Shown here in pieces: positions 1 to 10,327 of a stretch of DNA of 64,000 bases (the first letter of the stretch is position 1; the number at the start of each line of letters is the position of its first letter). Both the position numbers and the translations under genes were made by a program. A model generated the notes under the pieces. The model worked only from the letters and a program-made list of their open reading frames with translations. It searched no databases and had not been told where the DNA came from. The DNA comes from Deltaproteobacteria bacterium (GTDB taxonomy: Bacteria > Desulfobacterota > Binatia > Binatales > Binataceae): NCBI GenBank assembly GCA_021831785.1, contig JAKBMB010000032.1, positions 124,001-188,000 on the forward strand. Reading direction: 5' to 3'.

Positions 1-308
1 CAGAACCGCATCGTGGTGTTGAAGGCAAGCTCGAGTATCCGCCGCCAAGCTTCAGACCCGCTAGGCCGCCCCTCAGCCTGTTCCTTAAGGTCGAAGCCGG
101 ACGAAAAACCCCTGCCCGCCCCGCTGAGCACGATCGCTCGGACGCCGCCATCTCGCTCCGCCTCGTCCAAGGCCCCATTCAGGTCGAGAAGCGTGCTGCG
201 CGACAAGGCGTTCAAGCGCTCCGGCCGGTTCAGCTCGACGTGCATAACATGGTCGCAGCGCTCAATCCGTATCGTCTCGAACGCGGACAGATTCTCGTCG
301 GCAGTCAT
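1..308 (-). CDS. enoyl-CoA hydratase/isomerase family protein, 5' part
   Basis: The minus strand is open from an ATG at 308 to the window edge, giving about 102 residues of a crotonase-fold N-terminus. The family signature is visible: the ELNRPERLNALS segment, then IVLSGAGRGFSSGFDL, which forms the first half of the oxyanion hole and CoA pocket. A GAGGG ribosome site lies about 10 bases before the ATG. Members hydrate or isomerise acyl-CoA thioesters in fatty-acid, aromatic or amino-acid breakdown; the specificity residues of the second half lie outside the window, so the substrate cannot be assigned. The gene follows the RND pump operon on the same strand after 137 bases and is probably transcribed separately. 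Confidence 0.85.
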   Translation of the reverse strand, partial: MTADENLSAFETIRIERCDHVMHVELNRPERLNALSRSTLLDLNGALDEAERDGGVRAIVLSGAGRGFSSGFDLKEQAEGRPSGSEAWRRILELAFNTTMRF

Positions 309-445
309 CAGCGTTGCCCTCTTCCGATAGCGATTTTCTCCTGGCGCCCCGTTGTTGCGGCCTTAAGCGCGCCGGAGCCGCGAGCCATCTCGCCAACGAG
401 GCTGCTCGCGAATAATAAAAAATGGATCTTCCCCGCTAACGACAA

Positions 446-3400
446 CTACTGTTGAAGCGGTGCCCCGCGGTAAACCATGTAATAAATAAGCGGTATCACA
501 ATCAGCGTGAAGGCGGTCGAGGCGAAAATGCCGAAGATGAAGCACCAAGCGAGCCCCGAGAAGATTGGGTCGAGCGTGATAACCACCGAACCCAACACCG
601 CCGCGCTTGCGGTGAGCACGATGGGCCTTAGCCGAACCGCGCCGGCCTCCAACACCGCGTCCTCGAGCGTCCGTCCCTGGTCAAGCCCCCGATGGATGAA
701 GTCGATGAGTATGATGGAGTTGCGCACCACGATGCCGGCCAGCGCGATCATCCCAATCATGGCCGTTGCCGTAAAGAACGTCGGATCGGCGTAACCCGCT
801 ACCGGGCGGTTGGTGAGCAGGTTGAGGACAAAGAAACCGGGCATGATTCCGACCAGCGTGAGCGGGATGGCAGTCATGATGATGAGCGGCATGACCATCG
901 AGCCGGTCTGCGCCACCAAAAGCACGTAGATGAAAAAGAGCGCCGCGCCGAAGGCTATCCCCAGATCGCGAAAGACCTGCACCGTGATGTGCCACTCGCC
1001 TTCACCGGTCCACACGATCGTATATCCAGGCGGCAGGGTTTCGGCGGTCTGCTGTTGGAGCCACAAAACTTCATTGACGGGACTAATTCCAGCCGTGCCG
1101 GCCATGACCAGCGCGACCCGCCGCAGGTCCTTATGGTAGACGGGCTGTTCGTCCGCGGTCTGCGCGATCTCGCCAAGCTCGCCCAGCGGCACCAATTGGG
1201 CCCCGGCGCCGCGCACTTTCACCGCGGTCAGGTTTTCGACCGCGGAGCGTTCGGCGCGCGGCAGGCGAAGCTCGATCAAAAGCGGGGCGCGCTCGGAGGG
1301 AATATGAACGGCGCCCGCCGTCTGCCCGCCCAAAGCGATCGCCAAGGTGCCGGCAGCCTCGGCGGTGGTCACTCCGTTCAGCGCAGCTTTCTGCCGGTCG
1401 ATGATATACCGCAGCCGCGGCGCGGCGGCGATGGAATAATCGTCGGCGGATACCAGCCCCGCAGTGTGCGCGAAGAGTTTGCGCAGCGTCTTGCCGTAGG
1501 CAACCAACTGCTCGTACTCGGCGCCGGGCGGCCCATAGATTTCCGCCACCACCGAGGCGAGCACCGGCGGCCCCGGCGGCGTCTCGACTAGCTTCGCCAG
1601 CCGCACCCGATCGCGCCGCGCGATCGCCTCGACTTCGGGATAGAGCCGCAGCGCGAGGTCATGCGAAGGCCGCGCGCGATGCGCTTTGGGCGCCAGGTTG
1701 ATGCGAATGTCGGCCTGCCAGGGTTCATGGCGCATGTAGTAATGGCGGACCATGCCGTTGAAGTCGAAAGGAGAATTGGTGCCGACGTAGGCTTCGAAGT
1801 CGGTCACTTCCGAAACTCGCGCCAGCAGCTTTTCGAAGTCGAGCGCTACAGCGTTGGTGGCCTCAAGCGGCGTATCCTCCGGCATGTCGATGACAAGGTT
1901 CAGCTCGTTCTTGTTGTCGAACGGCAGCATCTTGACCGGAACGAGCCCGAGCACCACCAGCGTCACGGAAGCGGCCAACATACCGCCGATCGCCAGCAAA
2001 AAAAGACGCGCGCGGCGCCGGCTTTCGAGCAGCGGGCGCAAAAGCCGCGTATACCAGCGCCGCACCGCGGCGCCTTCCTCCGGCGCAGTGGAGGCAGGCT
2101 CGTCGTACTCGCGCTTGAGCAGATGGTAAGTCGCCCAAGGGGTGATGGTGAACGCCACCAACAGCGACATCAACATCGCCAGCGGCACATTGAACGGCAT
2201 CGGCCGCATGTAGGGCCCCATCATACCGGTGACGAAGAGCATCGGGATAAACGAGACAATCACGGTAAAGGTCGCGAGGATGGTGGGCGGCCGGACCTCA
2301 TCCACCGCGATCAGCGTGGCGTCGCGCGGCGGCTGCGCGCGAAGCTTGAAGTGGCGATGAATGTTCTCCACGTCCACGATCGGGTCATCCACCAACAGAC
2401 CCAACGAAAGAATCAGTGCAAACAGGGTGACGCGGTTGATGCTGTAGCCGGCCATCAGGTTGCCGAGCAGCGCGATCGAAAGGGTCACCGGCACCGCGAT
2501 CGCGACGATGAAAGCCTCCCTGACACCGAGCGAGAACGCCAGCAGCACGACGATGATTGCGATCGCGATCAGCAGCTCCCGCACCAGCTCGTTTACTTTC
2601 TCGTTGGCGGTCTCGCCGTAATTGCGCGTAACCAACACGCCTACGTCCGACGGAATCGCGACGCGCCTTAGGCTCTCGACCTTGCGCAGCAGCCCTTCCG
2701 CCACTGCCACGGCGTTGGTTCCGTGCCGCTTGGCGAAGGCGATCGTCACCGCGGGATAAATCCTTCCGCGCGCGCCGACCGTAGTCAGCTTAAGTTGACC
2801 CGGCTCGTCGAGCAGCAAGCGGCGGGCCGGGCCGAAGCCGATGCTCGCGTAGGTCTCGGCTTCCGCGGGGCCGTCGATCACTTGGGCCACCTCGTGCAAG
2901 TAAAGCGGTCGGCCGCGGCGCGCCGCGACTACCAACTCGCGCACATCGGCGGCGGCGCTTAAGAAAGGCCCGCTCTCCATGACGAACTCGCGGTTCGCGC
3001 GGGCAAACCTGCCGACGCGCAGGTTTACGTCCGCGCCCCGCAGCGCTTGTTCCACATCGAGTACCGTCAGATCGTGCCCGGCGAGCCTTTGCGGGTCGAG
3101 CAACACGCGCACCTGCCGAGGCCGTCCGCCGACGACGAACGAACGCCCGGTGTCGGCGACCTCCTGCATGCGGTGCAGGATCTCGTCGGCTATGCGGCGC
3201 AAGGCGGCGTCGCTTTCAGCGGCGCCGTAGAGGGTGACGGCGAGAATCGGAACGTCATCGATCCCGACCGGTTTCACAATCCAGCCGGTCACGCCCGGCG
3301 GAACCGCATCGCGGTTGGACTCAAGCTTGTTATAAATCTCGACCAAGGCCTTGGTGCGGTCGTAACCCACCTGAAAACGCACCGTGACCATCGCCATGCC

Positions 3401-3694
3401 CGGCTGCGACACCGAGTAAATGTGGCGCACCCCATCCATCTCCCATAAACGCTTTTCGAGATTGCTGGTGACCAGATTTTCAACTTCTCCGGCGGTTGCG
3501 CCGGGCATCTGAACGATGATGTCCGCCATGGGGACGGAAATCTGCGGGTCCTCCTCGCGCGGCGTCACCGCAAGCGCGACCAAGCCGGCGGCCAGCGATG
3601 CCAGCAGCAAAAGCAGCGACAGATTGGACCCTAGAAAAAGGTCAACGATCCGGGCGGTAAAGCCGAGCTGATGGGCTGCGTTATTGCTCTTCAC
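446..3694 (-). CDS. RND efflux permease (inner-membrane pump)
   Basis: At 1082 residues it is full length for an RND permease (AcrB/MexF/CusA superfamily), the proton-driven trimer that exports substrates through a membrane-fusion protein and TolC. TM1 is about residues 24-44, large periplasmic domains follow each of TM1 and TM7, and the TM4 proton-relay pair is present (LVDDPIVDVEN, D436-D437). In TM10, where AcrB has the relay lysine in AKNAILI, this protein has VVRNSIILIDF, so R991 stands at the lysine position. The ATG overlaps the stop of the upstream membrane-fusion gene by four bases (ATGA), so the two are translationally coupled. It is the last gene of the DUF2892-OsmC-TolC-MFP-RND run. 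The substrate cannot be read from sequence; the sequence is closer to HAE-type than to metal exporters. Confidence 0.95.
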   Translation of the reverse strand: MKSNNAAHQLGFTARIVDLFLGSNLSLLLLLASLAAGLVALAVTPREEDPQISVPMADIIVQMPGATAGEVENLVTSNLEKRLWEMDGVRHIYSVSQPGMAMVTVRFQVGYDRTKALVEIYNKLESNRDAVPPGVTGWIVKPVGIDDVPILAVTLYGAAESDAALRRIADEILHRMQEVADTGRSFVVGGRPRQVRVLLDPQRLAGHDLTVLDVEQALRGADVNLRVGRFARANREFVMESGPFLSAAADVRELVVAARRGRPLYLHEVAQVIDGPAEAETYASIGFGPARRLLLDEPGQLKLTTVGARGRIYPAVTIAFAKRHGTNAVAVAEGLLRKVESLRRVAIPSDVGVLVTRNYGETANEKVNELVRELLIAIAIIVVLLAFSLGVREAFIVAIAVPVTLSIALLGNLMAGYSINRVTLFALILSLGLLVDDPIVDVENIHRHFKLRAQPPRDATLIAVDEVRPPTILATFTVIVSFIPMLFVTGMMGPYMRPMPFNVPLAMLMSLLVAFTITPWATYHLLKREYDEPASTAPEEGAAVRRWYTRLLRPLLESRRRARLFLLAIGGMLAASVTLVVLGLVPVKMLPFDNKNELNLVIDMPEDTPLEATNAVALDFEKLLARVSEVTDFEAYVGTNSPFDFNGMVRHYYMRHEPWQADIRINLAPKAHRARPSHDLALRLYPEVEAIARRDRVRLAKLVETPPGPPVLASVVAEIYGPPGAEYEQLVAYGKTLRKLFAHTAGLVSADDYSIAAAPRLRYIIDRQKAALNGVTTAEAAGTLAIALGGQTAGAVHIPSERAPLLIELRLPRAERSAVENLTAVKVRGAGAQLVPLGELGEIAQTADEQPVYHKDLRRVALVMAGTAGISPVNEVLWLQQQTAETLPPGYTIVWTGEGEWHITVQVFRDLGIAFGAALFFIYVLLVAQTGSMVMPLIIMTAIPLTLVGIMPGFFVLNLLTNRPVAGYADPTFFTATAMIGMIALAGIVVRNSIILIDFIHRGLDQGRTLEDAVLEAGAVRLRPIVLTASAAVLGSVVITLDPIFSGLAWCFIFGIFASTAFTLIVIPLIYYMVYRGAPLQQ

Positions 3695-4776
3695 TGGCGG
3701 GACGACGGTAATGTTCCAAGGAGAACGCGCTCACCCTGGTTGAGCCCGGCCAGTATCTCGACACGATCGCCGAACATGCGTCCGAGCGCCACCTGACGCA
3801 GTTCAACTCCGCCTTGAGAGACGACGCGGACCGTGGCAAGCTGGCCGACTTCCTCAACGGCTCCCCGAGGGATAGTCAGAATGCCTTGCTGTCCGATGGC
3901 GAAAGTCGCCCGCGCAAACATCCCCGGCCGCAACCCCCGGTCGGGCGGCAGGTCGGCGCGGACAATAAAGCTGCGGGTTGACGGATCGGCGGCCGGTACA
4001 ATCTCGCTTACAATCCCGGACAGTTCGGTTCCAACGGCATCGACGCGAACCTTAAGCGGCAGGCCAACTCTCACATATCCGCCTAGTCCCTCCGGCGTCT
4101 CCAGCGAAACCCGCAGCGCCCTTTCATTGTAAAGCCTCACCAGCGGCCTGCCCGGCATCGCCAGGTCCCCCGGCTCGGCCAGTCGCTCCTGAACTATGGC
4201 CGCGATCGGCGAGCGCACCTCGGTATATTTGAGCGCCGCGCGCGCGCCGGCGACGCCGGCCTCGGTCTGGCTCACCCCGGCGGCGGCGGCGCGGTACGCG
4301 GCTTCGACTTGATCAAATTCATGGGGTGTCACCGAACCCAGCGCAAGCAGCGCGCGAAAGCGCTTTTCGTCGGCCGCAGCGCGCGCATACTCGGCTCGCG
4401 CCGCGGTGAGCCGGCCTTGAGCCTCGTTCACACGGGCCTCCAGGTCGGCCGCGTCAAGTCTCGCCAGGACCTGACCCTGCCGCACGGCATCGCCCGCACG
4501 AACGGCGATCTCTTTGATCGTCGCCGCGACCCGGCTCGCGACCTCCATCGGGAACCGAGACTCGATCTGCCCGACGACTTCCCTCCGTATCGGCACCGAT
4601 TCGAGCCGCACTACGGAAACGGGCGCATTGACGACGGCCTGAGCGCCGGTGGCTATCAGACCGGGCCCGATTCGCTGACCGGACAACAGATAGCCGACGA
4701 GCAGAACAACGCCCGCGCCGGCGAACAAAAACGTCGCCGCACGCACGATACGCGAACGTCGAGCTGCGACGTTCAT
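3691..4776 (-). CDS. RND efflux periplasmic adaptor (membrane-fusion protein)
   Basis: A 361-residue HlyD/AcrA-type adaptor bridging the RND permease and TolC. An N-terminal membrane anchor or signal segment (about 14-33) is followed by a lipoyl-like half motif (VAATIKEIAVRAGDAVRQGQ), a helical hairpin rich in Ala, Arg and Glu (about 115-170), the second lipoyl half (YTEVRSPIAAIVQERL) and beta-barrel/membrane-proximal domains with LPPDRGLRPGMFA. No lipobox cysteine is seen, so the protein is probably anchored by the N-terminal helix. The gene starts 4 bases after the TolC stop and overlaps the permease start by 4 bases, so the three form one operon. Confidence 0.94.
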   Translation of the reverse strand: MNVAARRSRIVRAATFLFAGAGVVLLVGYLLSGQRIGPGLIATGAQAVVNAPVSVVRLESVPIRREVVGQIESRFPMEVASRVAATIKEIAVRAGDAVRQGQVLARLDAADLEARVNEAQGRLTAARAEYARAAADEKRFRALLALGSVTPHEFDQVEAAYRAAAAGVSQTEAGVAGARAALKYTEVRSPIAAIVQERLAEPGDLAMPGRPLVRLYNERALRVSLETPEGLGGYVRVGLPLKVRVDAVGTELSGIVSEIVPAADPSTRSFIVRADLPPDRGLRPGMFARATFAIGQQGILTIPRGAVEEVGQLATVRVVSQGGVELRQVALGRMFGDRVEILAGLNQGERVLLGTLPSSRQ

Positions 4777-4779
4777 CGG

Positions 4780-6189
4780 TTATTCAACTCCCGACGGCGC
4801 TTGTCCTACCGCAAGATCGAGCCCGGCGAAGTCCACGGCCACCTCGACCTTCGCCCGCACCGAGCGCGATTCCGCCGACCGGCGCGAAGCTTGAGCGTCA
4901 AGCACGTCGACGTTGGTGGCAAGACCCGCGCCGTAGCGATTTTCCAGAATTCTCAACGCATCGGCCGCATAGGCCCTGTCGCGTTGCGCAACGCCGAGGT
5001 TTTCGCGCGCTGCCTCTAAAGTGCGGTACGCCCGCTCGACTTCAACGCCGATGTCTTGCAAAAGCTGCGCGCGAAGAATTATGGCCCGCTCCCGATCGGA
5101 TTGCGCGATGTCCACCTTGGCCCGAGTCGCAAAGCCGTTGAACAAATTGAACCGAGCAAAGAGGAACACCGAATAATTGTTGCCGGCGCGGATCAGTTCT
5201 TCGGAGTCATTTTCATAGGTGGTCGCCAACGACACCGTGGGCAGATAGCCGGCGTGGGCAATCGTAACCGCCTGCTCCGCCGCCTTCACTCGATCATAAG
5301 CGATTTTCACCTCTGGCCGATGTCTTAGCGCGGTCTCCCGCAGCTCGGCCAGACCGCGAGACTTCAACGCGGCCGGCACTTGCGCGCCAAGAGGCGCAAG
5401 TCTTTCATCCACCCCGAGCGTGTCGGAGAGCTGCGCTCGGGCGATCTCGATCAAGCTCTGCGCGCTTGTAAGCTGCTGGCGGAGGCTTCCTACCACCACC
5501 TGGCTGCGCAGCAGGTCGGCGCTGACCACCATGCCCTGTTTCAGCATGTTGCGCGCGCGGTCGCGATGCGCCCGTGCGGCGGCAAGCGCGCGCGCGATCA
5601 CCGCTTCTTCCTGTTCGGCCAGCAGCGCGCGATAGTACGCTTGGATGACCGCGAACTGGATTTCCTGGCGAACGCGCGTCGTCTGCCAGGTTTCGGCGTC
5701 AGCCTGATACCCGGCCGCCTTATAGGCCGCCCACACGCTGCCGCCCGCAAACAGCGTCTGCGACATCATGATCTGACTTTGAAAGTTAGACAGCGCCGCC
5801 GGAAAGTTGAGTCGACTCAGCGCAAAATCAGCGGACGTGAACTCCTGCTGCGCCAAGAGATTCGAGAACACCAACGGCGGGTTATCGGTGTAGGAGTAGT
5901 TCTCAAGCGCGTCGAGCCTGGGGAGCAAGGCCGCCCGCGCCTCGGTCACCTGATCGGCCGCGCTGCGCCGTTTAAGACTCGCCGCCATAAGGATTCTGCT
6001 ATGCTGGCTCGCGATCTGCAGCGCCTCCGCAAGCAAAATACGCCGCGGCGCCGGCGCGGCCGTGATACCTTGAACCTGAGCAAGACCGTCAACGCCGGCG
6101 ACAAACGCAATGCCGAGAACCAACATCATCGCTGGGGACCACGGCCTGCGGCGCCGGTGTCGGACGAGATGGCATTCGAGCGCATGCAT
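4780..6189 (-). CDS. TolC-family outer-membrane efflux channel
   Basis: A 469-residue TolC/OprM-like protein with two tandem OEP repeats: long amphipathic helices, with the tell-tale ALLPRLDALENY and GYLPTVSLATTYEN segments at equivalent places in each repeat. It would form the outer-membrane/periplasmic tunnel for the adjacent adaptor and permease. The ORF opens at an ATG giving a very basic first 20 residues; a second start (MM at 21-22) leaves a cleaner signal peptide (MLVLGIAFVAGVDGLA) and may be the true one. It is separated by 30 bases from the OsmC gene upstream and 3 bases from the adaptor downstream. Confidence 0.92.
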   Translation of the reverse strand: MHALECHLVRHRRRRPWSPAMMLVLGIAFVAGVDGLAQVQGITAAPAPRRILLAEALQIASQHSRILMAASLKRRSAADQVTEARAALLPRLDALENYSYTDNPPLVFSNLLAQQEFTSADFALSRLNFPAALSNFQSQIMMSQTLFAGGSVWAAYKAAGYQADAETWQTTRVRQEIQFAVIQAYYRALLAEQEEAVIARALAAARAHRDRARNMLKQGMVVSADLLRSQVVVGSLRQQLTSAQSLIEIARAQLSDTLGVDERLAPLGAQVPAALKSRGLAELRETALRHRPEVKIAYDRVKAAEQAVTIAHAGYLPTVSLATTYENDSEELIRAGNNYSVFLFARFNLFNGFATRAKVDIAQSDRERAIILRAQLLQDIGVEVERAYRTLEAARENLGVAQRDRAYAADALRILENRYGAGLATNVDVLDAQASRRSAESRSVRAKVEVAVDFAGLDLAVGQAPSGVE

Positions 6190-6219
6190 GCTACGCTCCC
6201 CGGTCTTTGCTTGAGCGCC

Positions 6220-6654
6220 CTAGACCATCGTCACTTGCGCGTCCAGGCGACGCACAACGGATAGCGAATTGCTGACCAGGCAGGTCTTCTCCGCCTTGTC
6301 CAGGGCGCCACGGGCCTTCTCCTCGCTCGTCCCCTGCGGCACCGTCAGACGAGCGCGCAGCACGAATTCCGTGAACCGCAGCGCGCCGTCTCGGCGTTCG
6401 AGCCTGCCCTCGACCTCACATCCGAGGCTGCTCCAGCTTATAGCCGAAGCGCGCGCGATCGCGCGGAAGGTCAGGATAAAGCAGCCGGCCACCGCGGCCG
6501 TGAGCAAGGTCTCGGGCGACCATAAGTTGCCCGGTCCGCCGAATTCCGCCGGCGGAGCACTCTCCAGCGCCGCGACGCCCGCCGGCTCCAGCGAGAGATT
6601 TCCCTCGCTGTCAGCGCTGGCTTCGACCTTATAGATGTGAGGCAGAGGTTGCAC
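6220..6654 (-). CDS. OsmC-family thiol peroxidase-like protein
   Basis: 144 residues, typical for OsmC/Ohr/YhfA proteins. Both family cysteines are visible: C58 in TAAVAGCFILTF and C125 in AEKTCLVSNSL. OsmC-fold proteins reduce organic hydroperoxides, and some members act on persulfides. Subclass cannot be fixed by eye; the CFILTF helix resembles the YhfA-like branch more than Ohr. It lies 12 bases after a DUF2892 gene and 30 bases before tolC, and this placement is the main argument that the pump operon belongs to a reactive-sulfur or electrophile response. Confidence 0.9.
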   Translation of the reverse strand: MQPLPHIYKVEASADSEGNLSLEPAGVAALESAPPAEFGGPGNLWSPETLLTAAVAGCFILTFRAIARASAISWSSLGCEVEGRLERRDGALRFTEFVLRARLTVPQGTSEEKARGALDKAEKTCLVSNSLSVVRRLDAQVTMV

Positions 6655-6666
6655 AGCCTAAACCTC

Positions 6667-6903
6667 CTAACGGCTAACTGCCGGCGCGTGATCGCCTGAT
6701 TCCCGGGTCTCGCATCCGCTGCCCACGCCGAATCGGCGCATTATGATCTCGGCCGGACAAAACCCCGTGAGCGCAGATTGAGCCAGGTTTAGCCCCACGA
6801 ACAGCGGCAACAGCAACCAGTAGGGGCTCACGAAGTAGGTGAGCGCCACGCCGAGGGTTACCAGCGTGCCGGCCAGCAATCGAATAGCGTTTTCGAGCGA
6901 CAT
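6667..6903 (-). CDS. DUF2892 small inner-membrane protein
   Basis: 78 residues with two transmembrane segments (about 8-24 and 28-44) joined at a Pro-Tyr-Trp turn, then GLNLAQSALTGFCPAEIIMRRFGV. This GFCP motif defines the YgaP-type C-terminal membrane domain (DUF2892/YgaP_TM), which in E. coli is fused to a rhodanese. Here the rhodanese is instead fused to the divergent ArsR regulator 64 bases away. The conserved Cys (in GFCPAE) could take part in sulfur transfer, which is inference. First gene of the five-gene efflux run. Confidence 0.85.
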   Translation of the reverse strand: MSLENAIRLLAGTLVTLGVALTYFVSPYWLLLPLFVGLNLAQSALTGFCPAEIIMRRFGVGSGCETRESGDHAPAVSR

Positions 6904-6919
6904 CGCATCCCTCCATTGC

Positions 6920-6948
6920 TTGCGTTATCCATGAATCTATGGAATACT
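6920..6948 (+). promoter_or_regulatory. putative promoter with operator-like inverted repeat in its spacer
   Basis: In the 64-base divergent gap, TTGCGT (6920-6925) and AATACT (6943-6948) are spaced by 17 bases, a weak -35/-10 pair reading toward the ArsR-rhodanese gene. The spacer holds an imperfect inverted repeat, TATCCAT/ATGGAATA (6926-6946). ArsR-family repressors usually bind such 12-2-12-like sites over the promoter, so autorepression and joint control of the divergent DUF2892-OsmC-pump operon are plausible. The promoter boxes are weak matches and the operator role is inferred. Confidence 0.4.
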
Positions 6949-6967
6949 TTAAACAGGTCAAACCAGT

Positions 6968-7702
6968 ATGTCAATAGCCGAGAAAAACCCGAGCTTGATG
7001 CTCTTCGCGCAGTTTGCGTCGGTTGCCCAGGCGCTGGGACATACCCACCGCCTGCTTCTCCTTCAGCTTCTGGCCCAAGGCGAACGGCCGGTGGTCGCGC
7101 TAGCCAGCGCAAGCGGTGTTGGCCTTACCAACGTGTCTCAACACTTGCAGCGCTTGAGCCGCGCGGGCCTCGTGCTTTCGCGGCGTCAGGGAAGGCAGGT
7201 GTTTTATCGGCTTAGCGACGATATCGTGCTGACGCTTGTCGAGACCTTGCGCAAAGTCGCCGAGCGCCGTCTGGCGGAACTTCGCGCGGTCTTTCAGGAC
7301 TATTTTTTAAACCTCGACAATCTGACCCCCGTTTCGAGGCGCGAGTTGCTAAGGCGTCTGCGAACAAGGGAGGTGGCGGTAGTCGACGTGCGGCCGCCGG
7401 AGGAATTTTCAGCCGGCCATTTACCCGGCGCTATCAATCTGCCCCTGGAGGAACTGCAACGGAGCATGAGCGACGTGCCTCGCGACCGCGAAATTGTCGC
7501 CTACTGTCGGGGACCTTATTGCGTAATGTCCTACGAGGCGGTCCATCTTTTGCGGCAGCGCGGTTTCAAGGCCCTGCGTCTGGAGGACGGCTATCCTGAG
7601 TGGAAGGCCGCGGGATTGCCGATCGAGGGCGGTCAAGGGAACAAGCGCGGCAAACTTTTATCGTTGCGCAACGGTTATCGAAAGAAACGGATCGCCGGAT
7701 AG
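6968..7702 (+). CDS. ArsR-family regulator fused to a rhodanese domain
   Basis: 244 residues in two parts. Residues 10-95 are an ArsR/SmtB winged helix (recognition helix near VGLTNVSQHLQRLSRAGLV); it contains no cysteine, so it lacks both the metal thiolates of ArsR/SmtB and the dithiol of BigR/SqrR persulfide sensors. Residues 125-225 are a rhodanese domain with DVRPPEEFSAGHLPGA and an active loop CRGPYCVMS (C180, second Cys C185). The natural reading is that persulfidation of C180 reports sulfane sulfur to the DNA-binding half, which is inference. It is divergent from the DUF2892-OsmC-TolC-MFP-RND genes. No good Shine-Dalgarno site is seen, but the ATG fits the domain start. Confidence 0.9.
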   Translation: MSIAEKNPSLMLFAQFASVAQALGHTHRLLLLQLLAQGERPVVALASASGVGLTNVSQHLQRLSRAGLVLSRRQGRQVFYRLSDDIVLTLVETLRKVAERRLAELRAVFQDYFLNLDNLTPVSRRELLRRLRTREVAVVDVRPPEEFSAGHLPGAINLPLEELQRSMSDVPRDREIVAYCRGPYCVMSYEAVHLLRQRGFKALRLEDGYPEWKAAGLPIEGGQGNKRGKLLSLRNGYRKKRIAG

Positions 7703-7822
7703 CCGGCGGTTCGCGGCTGCGAGTTATAAGCATCGAGCCAAGGCTTTGACCCGATTTTCGTGTCAAACGAAGACCGTCAACTAAGGCGTCCTACCCGACG
7801 CCCAATTTGGGGTGGCGAATCA

Positions 7823-8074
7823 ATGAACGATTCAAAGCGCGCGCAAAGGGCCGAGGCCGACGCACATGTCGGCGGGACTGTGCGAGCGATGCTGCTTTTT
7901 CTCGTCGTGGGGATTCCGATAGTGCTGTTCGACTGGCGGGTTCTGGACGAGGTGCTGGTCGGCAAGCTTCACTCGCAGGCAATCGCGATCGCGCTGGTGC
8001 TTGCGATCGTGTTCGTGGTCTGCGCGTGGGTCCTGGGCCGGCATATACGCGCTCTTCTTCCACCCGAAGCGTAA
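7823..8074 (+). CDS. small two-helix membrane protein
   Basis: 83 residues from the ATG that follows a GGGGTGG ribosome site. A charged N-terminus (about 1-18) precedes two hydrophobic helices (about 22-38 and 53-73) joined by a short acidic loop, and the protein ends soon after the second helix. No family is recognised. It follows the ArsR-rhodanese gene on the same strand after 120 bases and may be co-transcribed. A longer reading from 7760 would add a basic leader with no support. Confidence 0.6.
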   Translation: MNDSKRAQRAEADAHVGGTVRAMLLFLVVGIPIVLFDWRVLDEVLVGKLHSQAIAIALVLAIVFVVCAWVLGRHIRALLPPEA

Positions 8075-8206
8075 CCGCCGCGCCGCGTCACGGCGAGATG
8101 GTTTTCCTATTCGAGCTTGCTGCGCTAGCGCCGAGTCCGCAGCAATGGTGAAATCAACTCGTATTCGTTCGATGGACTAGAATTACGGTCTTCGCAGGAA
8201 AAGGAT

Positions 8207-9685: not shown

Positions 9686-10327
9686 ATGTCCCGCCACCGC
9701 CACTGCACTGACAATGACCCGCCCTGCGACGCGACGCGCGACGCGCCGCTGCGAGACCGCCGCGGCGCGCGTCAGCCCGAACGCTTCGACCCAACTCGGG
9801 CGGCTCTTCTTGATGATCGCGAACGCTTCGACTATTTGCCGCCGGAGCGCGTCATCGCCGTGCTCGACCCACCTCGCGACGGGCTGGTGGTGGACTTCGG
9901 CGCCGGCACCGGAACTTACGCGCTCGAAATCGCGCGCGCGCGGCCTGACCTAACGGTCGTCGCCTTGGATGAGCAGCCCGAAATGCTCGAACGGCTGCGC
10001 GGTAAGCCCGAGGCTTCGCTGCCCAATCTCGAAGCAGCGCTTCCCGATAGGCTGGCGGCGCTGGCCGGACGCGCCGACAGAGTCCTTGCGCTGAACGTTC
10101 TGCATGAGTTGGGCGATGAGGCAATCCGTGAGCTAGCCTCGCTGCTTTCGCCGCAGGGCTTCGTAGTGGTAATCGACTGGGACGCCGAAACCGAGCGACC
10201 CGTCGGGCCGCCGCGTGCGCATGTCTACAACACCGATGAGGCAACAAAGCGGCTCGAAAGCGTCGGCCTGCGGATTGAGCGGCTTGCCCCGATGCGCTAT
10301 CACTTCGTTTTGCGGGCGCGCCGCTGA
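9686..10327 (+). CDS. class I SAM-dependent methyltransferase
   Basis: 213 residues. Motif I of the Rossmann-like SAM site is clear (VVDFGAGTGTYALEIA, about 67-82), followed by the acidic end of strand 2 (VVALDEQPEML), the motif IV region DRVLALNVLHEL and a post-motif GFVVVIDWD. The last strand pair (YHFVLRAR) is the usual C-terminus of Methyltransf_11/25 proteins. The substrate is unknown; the first 40 residues are basic and disordered. The 3' end overlaps the convergent amidotransferase gene by 28 bases. Confidence 0.85.
   Translation: MSRHRHCTDNDPPCDATRDAPLRDRRGARQPERFDPTRAALLDDRERFDYLPPERVIAVLDPPRDGLVVDFGAGTGTYALEIARARPDLTVVALDEQPEMLERLRGKPEASLPNLEAALPDRLAALAGRADRVLALNVLHELGDEAIRELASLLSPQGFVVVIDWDAETERPVGPPRAHVYNTDEATKRLESVGLRIERLAPMRYHFVLRARR

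Follow-up and report, generated by a model that had tools for sequence, protein, structure and literature searches.

An ArsR-rhodanese gene facing a pump operon

The stretch of DNA analysed here, referred to as the window, comprises 64,000 nucleotides of contig JAKBMB010000032.1 from a Binataceae genome (GCA_021831785.1). At positions 446–7702 it carries five minus-strand genes facing one plus-strand gene. The latter encodes an ArsR regulator fused to a rhodanese domain (ArsR-rhodanese), and the former place an RND permease, a periplasmic adaptor (membrane fusion protein, MFP) and an outer-membrane channel in one predicted operon, the gene set of a putative tripartite RND pump. The features of the locus are as follows.

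6968–7702, plus strand: ArsR-rhodanese regulator, 244 amino acids, with an ArsR winged helix at about residues 10–102 and a rhodanese domain at about residues 125–215
6667–6903, minus strand: DUF2892 / YgaP-like transmembrane protein, 78 amino acids (PF11127)
6220–6654, minus strand: OsmC-family protein, 144 amino acids (Pfam OsmC)
4780–6189, minus strand: TolC-family outer-membrane channel, 469 amino acids (Pfam OEP)
3691–4776, minus strand: periplasmic adaptor (RND MFP), 361 amino acids (HlyD_D23)
446–3694, minus strand: RND permease of a distinct subfamily, 1082 amino acids (ACR_tran)
6926–6945, no strand assigned: degenerate operator TATCCATGAATCTATGGAAT in the divergent spacer, just 3' of the operon's -10 box
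6946–6974, minus strand: sigma-70-like promoter of the pump operon, TTGACA-17-TAAAGT, 10/12 matches

All six predicted open reading frames were confirmed at these coordinates. Pfam profiles identify the regulator by Rhodanese (PF00581, 66.4 bits, cut-off 22.2) and HTH_5 (23.9 bits, cut-off 22), the first three operon products by YgaP-like_TM (PF11127, the DUF2892 model, 38.2 bits), OsmC (66.1 bits) and OEP (170.4 bits), and the adaptor and permease by HlyD_D23 (79.9 bits) and ACR_tran (498.6 bits). The operon genes are spaced by 12 bp (DUF2892-OsmC), 30 bp (OsmC-TolC), 3 bp (TolC-MFP) and -4 bp (MFP-RND), and 64 bp separate DUF2892 from the divergent regulator gene, all in agreement with an earlier reading of this DNA from its letters alone (the sequence-only reading). 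A scan of positions 300–8200 returned 12 terminator-like sites, no excess over the 8.9 ± 4.0 expected, and placed none in the 30-bp gap before tolC. The possibility that the operon ends before tolC was dropped on this ground, which does not in itself prove a single transcript. Among the accessory proteins, C49 of the DUF2892 protein is present in 26/26 aligned sequences, and C58 and C125 of the OsmC protein in 13/13 (query counted in both).

Linkage of regulator and pump across genomes

Each protein was searched against 96 genomes, comprising the window's own and its relatives, and neighbouring genes were called by a custom greedy script that may miss some of them. The RND permease occurs in 22 of the 41 genomes of the window's family, 15 of which encode ArsR-rhodanese within a few kilobases of it (17 with contig-end cases). 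A contig break separates regulator and pump in genomes G037 and G039, where the contig with ArsR-rhodanese carries DUF2892 and, in G039, also TolC; the pump stands without an adjacent regulator in five family genomes (G004, G012, G014, G018 and G025). In the window's own genome a single place matches the window's RND at E <= 1e-120, and a single place matches ArsR-rhodanese over its full length.

The order of the genes varies from locus to locus. The regulator diverges from the operon in the window and in L038, L062, L169 and L175 and lies downstream of RND in L162–L164, OsmC adjoins the regulator in L169, L172, L174 and L175, and DUF2892 follows RND in L160, L161, L170 and L174. That the gene content is kept despite this rearrangement argues for a common function, with OsmC as an optional part since it is found in only 10 of the family's 21 pump loci. 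The eight pump loci found elsewhere in the class, outside the window's family, hold no full-length ArsR-rhodanese within the stretch examined; they keep DUF2892, TolC and MFP in part. The sequence-only reading had named a lack of any linkage between regulator and pump as one test, and the linkage described above, together with the operator common to both partners, answers that test and rules out a chance neighbourhood.

An operator shared by regulator and pump

Expectation maximisation on 100 ArsR-rhodanese promoters converged on the palindrome ATTCAATtaATtaATTGAAT, which gives a family operator of the form ATTCAAT-N6-ATTGAAT. The log-likelihood of the motif is 871, compared with 24 for base-shuffled promoters (15 restarts for the controls, 40 for the real set), and 83 of the 100 promoters score at least 10 bits under the full model. 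A held-out model, built from the 82 promoters outside pump loci, was then scanned over the 4.5 kb upstream of the pump in 21 family loci, and detected a site of at least 15.9 bits in 15 of them, each expected at most 0.05 times by chance. Two groups among them are set apart by the place of the regulator. In L160 and L161, where no regulator adjoins the pump, near-perfect sites (34.8 and 33.0 bits) stand some 50 bp upstream of tolC; the ArsR-rhodanese genes of the same genomes, located on other contigs, also bear the operator (L317, 32.3 bits; L318, 27.6 bits). In L162–L164 the operator precedes DUF2892, and the regulator's own upstream region scores below 0 bits. These arrangements indicate that the operator tracks the pump promoter.

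The window's divergent spacer contains a degenerate copy of the operator at 6926–6945 (12.5 bits in the full model, 11.2 in the held-out model), enclosed by the 6920–6948 site that the sequence-only reading had singled out. It lies directly after the -10 box of TTGACA-17-TAAAGT, a placement as expected for a repressor; the promoter is weak evidence alone, with 2 promoter-like sites in 300–8200 vs 1.6 expected. A genome search with a degenerate pattern was unspecific (131 matches per strand vs 81 in the control, the places being listed in part), and the only one-mismatch matches above 6 bits are C24:93646 (19.9 bits) and C24:130926, the window's site. Of the 68 pump loci from beyond the window's family, 3 score at least 12 bits in the full model, compared with 1 among 40 control RND loci, for which both flanks were scanned.

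Several results speak against control through this operator. The best overlapping register of the window's site reaches 11.5 bits, a score for which chance would give about 0.19 sites in the 4.5-kb region and which is thus not significant alone, and the operator of the genus neighbour L038 is weak as well (11.6 bits, about 0.19 expected). Two other sites in the window score about as high or higher, and C1:19717, among three two-mismatch matches scored by matrix, attains 11.5 bits, so that at least one such site exists elsewhere in the genome. The held-out scan also found no operator in the upstream regions of L157, L158 and L159. The genome of L157 (G004) has no ArsR-rhodanese at E <= 1e-25. 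G014 and G018 encode the regulator elsewhere, in the former with its own operator (L315, 29.6 bits) and in the latter without one (L316). The stretch available for L165 begins inside the operon. Taking linkage and operator together, we consider regulation of the pump by ArsR-rhodanese very probable.

A further operator (24.5 bits) lies on the same contig, about 37 kb from the pump (G000:C24:91.8–94.0 kb; L314:5775–8000). It precedes an FA_hydroxylase-like and a VTT-rhodanese-like gene, both named by eye from relatives, next to the degraded remains of an ArsR-rhodanese gene. The two genes may now be controlled in trans by the regulator at the pump, of which no second full-length copy was found.

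A cysteine pair confined to the rhodanese half

The only cysteines of the regulator, C180 and C185, both lie in the rhodanese loop CRGPYC, and the ArsR half is cysteine-free, as the sequence-only reading had stated. Its corollary, that any thiol sensing must use this pair, is supported for the window's protein: both residues are kept in 80/80 homologues, the aligned ArsR half being cysteine-free in 61/80, and both are invariant in the 33 rows of a structure alignment (33 kept of 49, after rows with or at risk of stop codons were dropped). A scan of bacterial genomes yielded 255 candidate stretches encoding an ArsR-rhodanese relative. In the ArsR-rhodanese cluster of 122 sequences, window counted, all 100 proteins with CxxxxC match the ArsR hidden Markov model (HMM), as opposed to none of the 22 without it, and the three of these 22 that were inspected are all VTT-rhodanese proteins.

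In alignment with the rhodanese domain of 3tp9, C180 matches its YCR cysteine and is thereby the predicted sulfurtransferase active-site cysteine; the window's loop is two residues longer than that of 3tp9, accommodating C185. The protein belongs to the ArsR/SmtB family by its score on NF033788 (74.5 bits, cut-off 55). A structure model (predicted local distance difference test score, pLDDT, 78.7; predicted template modelling score 0.66) displays an ArsR fold plus a rhodanese fold. Foldseek places the ArsR fold nearest to 3gw2/2kko, an Mb0332/Rv0324-type ArsR (rank 1, 44% identity) of which only the ArsR fragment, residues 1–100, has been solved, and finds SqrR (6o8k) among further matches; this fragment is also the closest solved relative of the ArsR half in a separate comparison (E 1.7e-16). 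We take Mb0332 to be the same protein as Rv0324, presumably with a rhodanese half at full length. The linker at residues 111–120 is poorly defined (pLDDT 61), and because of this low confidence no coupling between the halves is visible in the model.

The sulfane-sulfur repressors BigR, SqrR, YgaV and SoxR (sHdrR) share the ArsR/SmtB fold with the window's regulator, as seen in its Foldseek match to SqrR 6o8k, and the BigR/SqrR sites share its ATTC/GAAT half-sites. However, the half-sites are spaced by N12 in the window's family rather than N8 as in SqrR, and the regulator scores 48.8 bits on the BigR model NF040642 (cut-off 155). The two cysteines of the BigR/SqrR ArsR domain are absent, the one within 'rlmimcyla' of SqrR corresponding to a glutamine in 'rllllqlla' of the window, and a fused rhodanese with a CxxxxC loop is found instead. 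Membership in BigR/SqrR is thus ruled out by the cysteine positions and the BigR cut-off, and a system that would work alike is set apart from this group because it fails the group's defining tests. ArsR proteins known to sense persulfides do so through a dithiol within the ArsR fold itself, whereas the sole dithiol of the present protein is in a fused sulfurtransferase domain. The same three domains (ArsR, rhodanese and DUF2892) also form one regulatory unit in E. coli ygaVP, where YgaP is, we assume, a rhodanese fused to a DUF2892 membrane part. The window's locus differs from ygaVP in that rhodanese is fused to ArsR, DUF2892 is separate, and the unit also includes a tripartite pump and OsmC.

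In the literature, the SqrR site is given as ATTC-N8-GAAT and YgaV as a repressor of ygaVP (PMC9774250), and SqrR is described as leaving DNA upon tetrasulfide formation and as being influenced by SQR (sulfide-quinone reductase) and a rhodanese (PMC9995734). A literature search at the level of titles and abstract beginnings returned no description of an ArsR-rhodanese fusion sensor, and a text search of PMC10451225 returned no promoter motif.

A distinct RND subfamily

Phylogenetic analysis of the permease indicates a distinct subfamily. In a tree with 40 control RNDs from genomes carrying ArsR-rhodanese (two genomes of the window's family contributed three of these), 86 of the 89 subfamily sequences, three having failed a length filter, form one clade (support 0.974), within which the 19 sequences from the window's family make up a clade of their own (support 0.996). 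Seventy signature positions set the subfamily apart from the controls. Among them, R991 is found in 86/86 subfamily members and as R in 1/40 controls, where K is commonest; this is presumably the position of the proton-relay lysine of AcrB. The paired aspartates of the proton relay, D436 and D437, are kept in 86/86 and 84/86 members, and these together with the ACR_tran architecture are shared with HAE-type pumps such as AcrB and CmeB. The window's RND nevertheless stays below the cut-offs of the HAE models NF033617, NF000282 and TIGR00915 (432.1, 326.5 and 275.7 bits vs 1250, 1250 and 940). Its score on the CusA/CzcA heavy-metal model TIGR00914 (274.7 bits) is far below the cut-off of 701, which rules out a CzcA-type metal pump, and the MFP reaches 136 bits on the CzcB model (cut-off 319). 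The subfamily was detected in 102 of 297 genomes of the phylum, in 98 of 250 genomes of the order of G417, a metagenome-assembled genome titled Burkholderiales, and in 25 of 40 genomes picked for carrying ArsR-rhodanese (two of these from the window's family).

Sulfur genes near the pump

Genes within 6 kb were compared between 89 pump loci of the subfamily (five duplicates dropped) and the 40 control RND loci; related loci are not independent, so the p-values are optimistic. DUF2892 adjoins 33 of the 89 pump loci (15 of the 68 outside the window's family) and none of the controls (p 5e-7), although its HMM and that of SQR were built from clusters including pump loci, which leans the comparison towards linkage. 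ArsR (24/89 vs 2/40), rhodanese (20/89 vs 3/40) and OsmC (10/89 vs 0/40) are likewise more frequent near the pump. Among 20 pump loci from named records, mostly Proteobacteria, DUF2892 (6/20 vs 0/40, p 8e-4), ArsR (6/20 vs 2/40, p 0.013) and SQR (3/20 vs 0/40, p 0.033) recur. SQR linkage is found at larger scale in the order of G417, where 69 of 250 genomes hold both the RND subfamily and SQR. The two lie within 6 kb of one another in 23 of these 69 and within 200 bp in 10, where a crude estimate based on genome size predicts about 0.4. The count leans towards linkage in that the SQR query came from a linked locus of the centre genome, itself among the 23 and the 10. This query matches solved sulfide-quinone reductases at E 9e-173. 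The gene order MFP-SQR-RND occurs both in L165, from the window's family, and in L260, from G417.

Other pump loci carry regulators of a different kind. The ArsR genes beside the pump in L266, L268–L270 and L272, the last four being Alphaproteobacteria, encode a BigR/SqrR-type cysteine pair by sequence; they score 79–95 bits on the BigR model (cut-off 155), and the one that was aligned matches SqrR and HlyU through both cysteines. One lineage thus pairs this pump with a sulfane-sulfur sensor of known type, and another pairs it with ArsR-rhodanese. SQR, DUF2892 and these BigR/SqrR-like proteins, all near one pump subfamily, lend support to the sulfur theme that the sequence-only reading had proposed.

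A survey reports that sulfane-sulfur ArsR regulators appear to act on RND pumps too (PMC12423496). In Azospira suillum PS, Dsui_3440–3443 form an operon in which SQR is accompanied by a cation/multidrug efflux pump, an RND MFP subunit and one unknown gene; the operon is highly expressed with H2S and was flagged by Bar-seq (PMC5358917). By its locus numbers SQR lies between the MFP and pump genes as in L165 and L260, in an operon whose pump may or may not belong to the present subfamily; unlike the window's locus, the excerpted account mentions no ArsR-rhodanese. Searches on SQR or sulfane sulfur with RND, at the level of titles and abstract beginnings, found no description of this pump subfamily.

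Other observations temper a sulfur-related role. Over all loci, SQR near the pump (7/89 vs 0/40, p 0.069) is not significant, nor are DsrE (3 of 89), the metallo-beta-lactamase (MBL) fold (5) and TSUP (3), each vs 0/40. The excerpts on Azospira state that deletion of Dsui_3440–3443 left the H2S oxidation rate unchanged, and they give the Bar-seq fitness flag without a sign (PMC5358917). Moreover, 52 of the 68 pump loci outside the window's family have neither DUF2892 nor SQR, which suggests that the pump may have wider or different substrates.

In L149:12283–13098 and L156:2127–3044, a gene resembling a sigma factor with a cysteine-rich C-terminal domain, identified by eye, precedes DUF2892-TolC-MFP-RND and is a possible alternative regulator of the same pump.

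A proposed mechanism

We propose that the locus is an autoregulated stress-export module, in which persulfidation of the rhodanese loop frees the ArsR dimer and derepresses the pump; as a whole, this account is marginally the one we favour. The genes, their linkage, the shared operator, the conserved cysteine pair, and the pump subfamily with its SQR linkage come from the computations above; the ligand, loop chemistry, direction of regulation and pump substrate are the parts that we infer. A dimer of ArsR halves would bind the palindrome in the 64-bp spacer just 3' of the operon's -10 box and keep DUF2892-osmC-tolC-mfp-rnd, and probably the regulator's own gene too, from being transcribed. With rising sulfane sulfur, in the form of glutathione or cysteine persulfide or polysulfide, Cys180 would accept sulfur, and Cys185, five residues on in the lengthened loop, could close a di- or polysulfide with it. 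This bridge may alter the contact between the halves so that the dimer leaves DNA. The derepressed RND-MFP-TolC pump would then export a thiophilic or sulfur-derived toxicant, while OsmC may reduce oxidants of the peroxide or persulfide type and the DUF2892 protein may handle sulfane sulfur at the membrane. The repressor probably switches on the pump when reactive sulfur or a similar thiol-attacking toxicant accumulates. Sulfane sulfur acting via C180/C185 is, on balance, the main signal we expect, and a sulfur-related pump substrate is a tentative prospect that falls just short of our expectation.

Regulator loci without the pump and alternative explanations

The regulator is also encoded in loci that lack the pump (n=86, including two duplicates and three contig-end pump loci). 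The neighbours in these loci include FA_hydroxylase (41), a major facilitator superfamily transporter (18), DsrE (17), an ArsM-like cluster (16), an MBL-fold cluster of uncertain function (16), SQR (6), TSUP (6, named by eye) and arsenosugar genes (7). Clear sulfur genes (DsrE, SQR or TSUP) are present in 23 loci, the MBL cluster being left out because its representative falls short of two model cut-offs, those of Blh and GloB. Genes of arsenic type, either ArsM-like or arsenosugar, are present in 19, or in 17 as compared with 22 for clear sulfur genes among the 81 loci that remain without duplicates and contig-end cases. Arsenic or another thiophile is therefore a serious rival ligand. ArsR-rhodanese would in this case be a metalloid or soft-metal sensor whose CxxxxC binds As(III), Sb(III) or a like thiophile in the manner of classical ArsR proteins, and the pump would export the toxicant or a conjugate of it. 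Binding of As(III) by a CxxxxC pair is possible in principle, the arsenosugar genes are identified as ArsS (TIGR04167, 438 bits), TIGR04283 and TIGR04282, and ArsR-rhodanese of some Gammaproteobacteria occurs near CusA/CzcA-type RNDs (L113, 1043 bits; L108, 798 bits).

We nevertheless regard a metalloid sensor as unlikely. Clear sulfur genes are slightly commoner, and the 23 loci with them include none with arsenosugar genes and six with ArsM-like genes. The ArsM-like cluster is mixed in length (103–387 amino acids) and its representative reaches 341 bits, below the ArsM cut-off of 500. The window's RND and MFP fall well below the CusA/CzcA (275 vs 701 bits) and CzcB (136 vs 319 bits) cut-offs, and near the pump subfamily (n=89) arsenosugar glycosyltransferases and the ArsM-like cluster are each found once, compared with seven cases of SQR. 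Of the persulfide sensor put forward in the sequence-only reading, the difference from BigR/SqrR stands, given the cut-off and the cysteines, and the choice of persulfide over arsenic is left undecided by the pump-free neighbours (23 vs 19 of 86).

A second alternative is a general multidrug or envelope-stress pump without a sulfur-related substrate, to which ArsR-rhodanese was linked by lineage-specific recruitment. The breadth of the subfamily in the phylum (102/297 genomes) would suit it, as would the 52/68 outside-family loci with neither DUF2892 nor SQR and regulators that may differ from locus to locus (LysR-like genes of cluster 28, by eye; the sigma-like genes of L149 and L156). Yet SQR linkage in the order of G417 is about 60 times the crude chance estimate and DUF2892 occurs in 15/68 outside-family loci vs 0/40 controls, so that we hold this explanation to be improbable. 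It is very improbable that the rhodanese half serves as an enzyme or a carrier of persulfide attached to an ArsR domain with a different signal, or that the regulator is an activator, since, although the loop retains the sulfurtransferase cysteine and the low-confidence linker (pLDDT 61, residues 111–120) reveals no coupling, the window's ArsR half is cysteine-free, both loop cysteines are kept in 80/80 homologues, the second (C185) is conserved although a plain rhodanese needs none, and an operator just after the -10 box fits a repressor.

Beyond this locus, the derepression mechanism proposed above leads to a broader and rather doubtful conjecture. ArsR-rhodanese may represent a class of one-protein sulfane-sulfur sensors in which a CxxxxC rhodanese is the switch of a cysteine-free ArsR, and the pump may ancestrally have served export under sulfide or polysulfide stress, with lineages swapping the sensor (ArsR-rhodanese, BigR/SqrR-like ArsR and possibly sigma factors) and keeping the pump. 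Target promoters of this regulator architecture can be predicted from its defined operator, and the RND subfamily that accompanies it recurs beside SQR. If true, the conjecture would offer a testable function both for a widespread uncharacterised pump and for the ArsR-rhodanese architecture, and would show the destination of reactive sulfur, or of the toxic products derived from it, in some cells.

Additional neighbours of the regulator and the pump

In 36 of the 86 pump-free loci (for example L112:8839–9705) FA_hydroxylase diverges from the ArsR-rhodanese gene, often with rhodanese-cluster, DsrE or SQR genes behind it, which points to a second, unexplained target of the regulator family. In some Gammaproteobacteria, ArsR-rhodanese is encoded near unrelated RND pumps in L108, L113, L063, L098, L112 and L115; of those RNDs scanned with NCBIfam, L108 and L113 are of the CusA/CzcA type and L112 is not.

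At the window itself, a 104-amino-acid protein with no Pfam match is encoded at 7760–8074 on the plus strand, 57 bp 3' of the regulator gene. It also adjoins the regulator in the genus neighbour L038 (47% identity over 78 amino acids) and may be co-transcribed with it. An S-adenosylmethionine-dependent methyltransferase at 9686–10327 (plus strand) has relatives of 57–63% identity near the pump in L038, L062, L170 and L174, as well as one near the ArsR-rhodanese locus of G014 (L315), and may be a member of the module. On the other side, a crotonase-like gene, named by eye (L118:9472–10308, minus strand; window 1–308 and beyond), follows RND by 137 bp on the same strand. L038 has a homologue at a greater distance downstream of RND, and the operon may extend past the window's edge.

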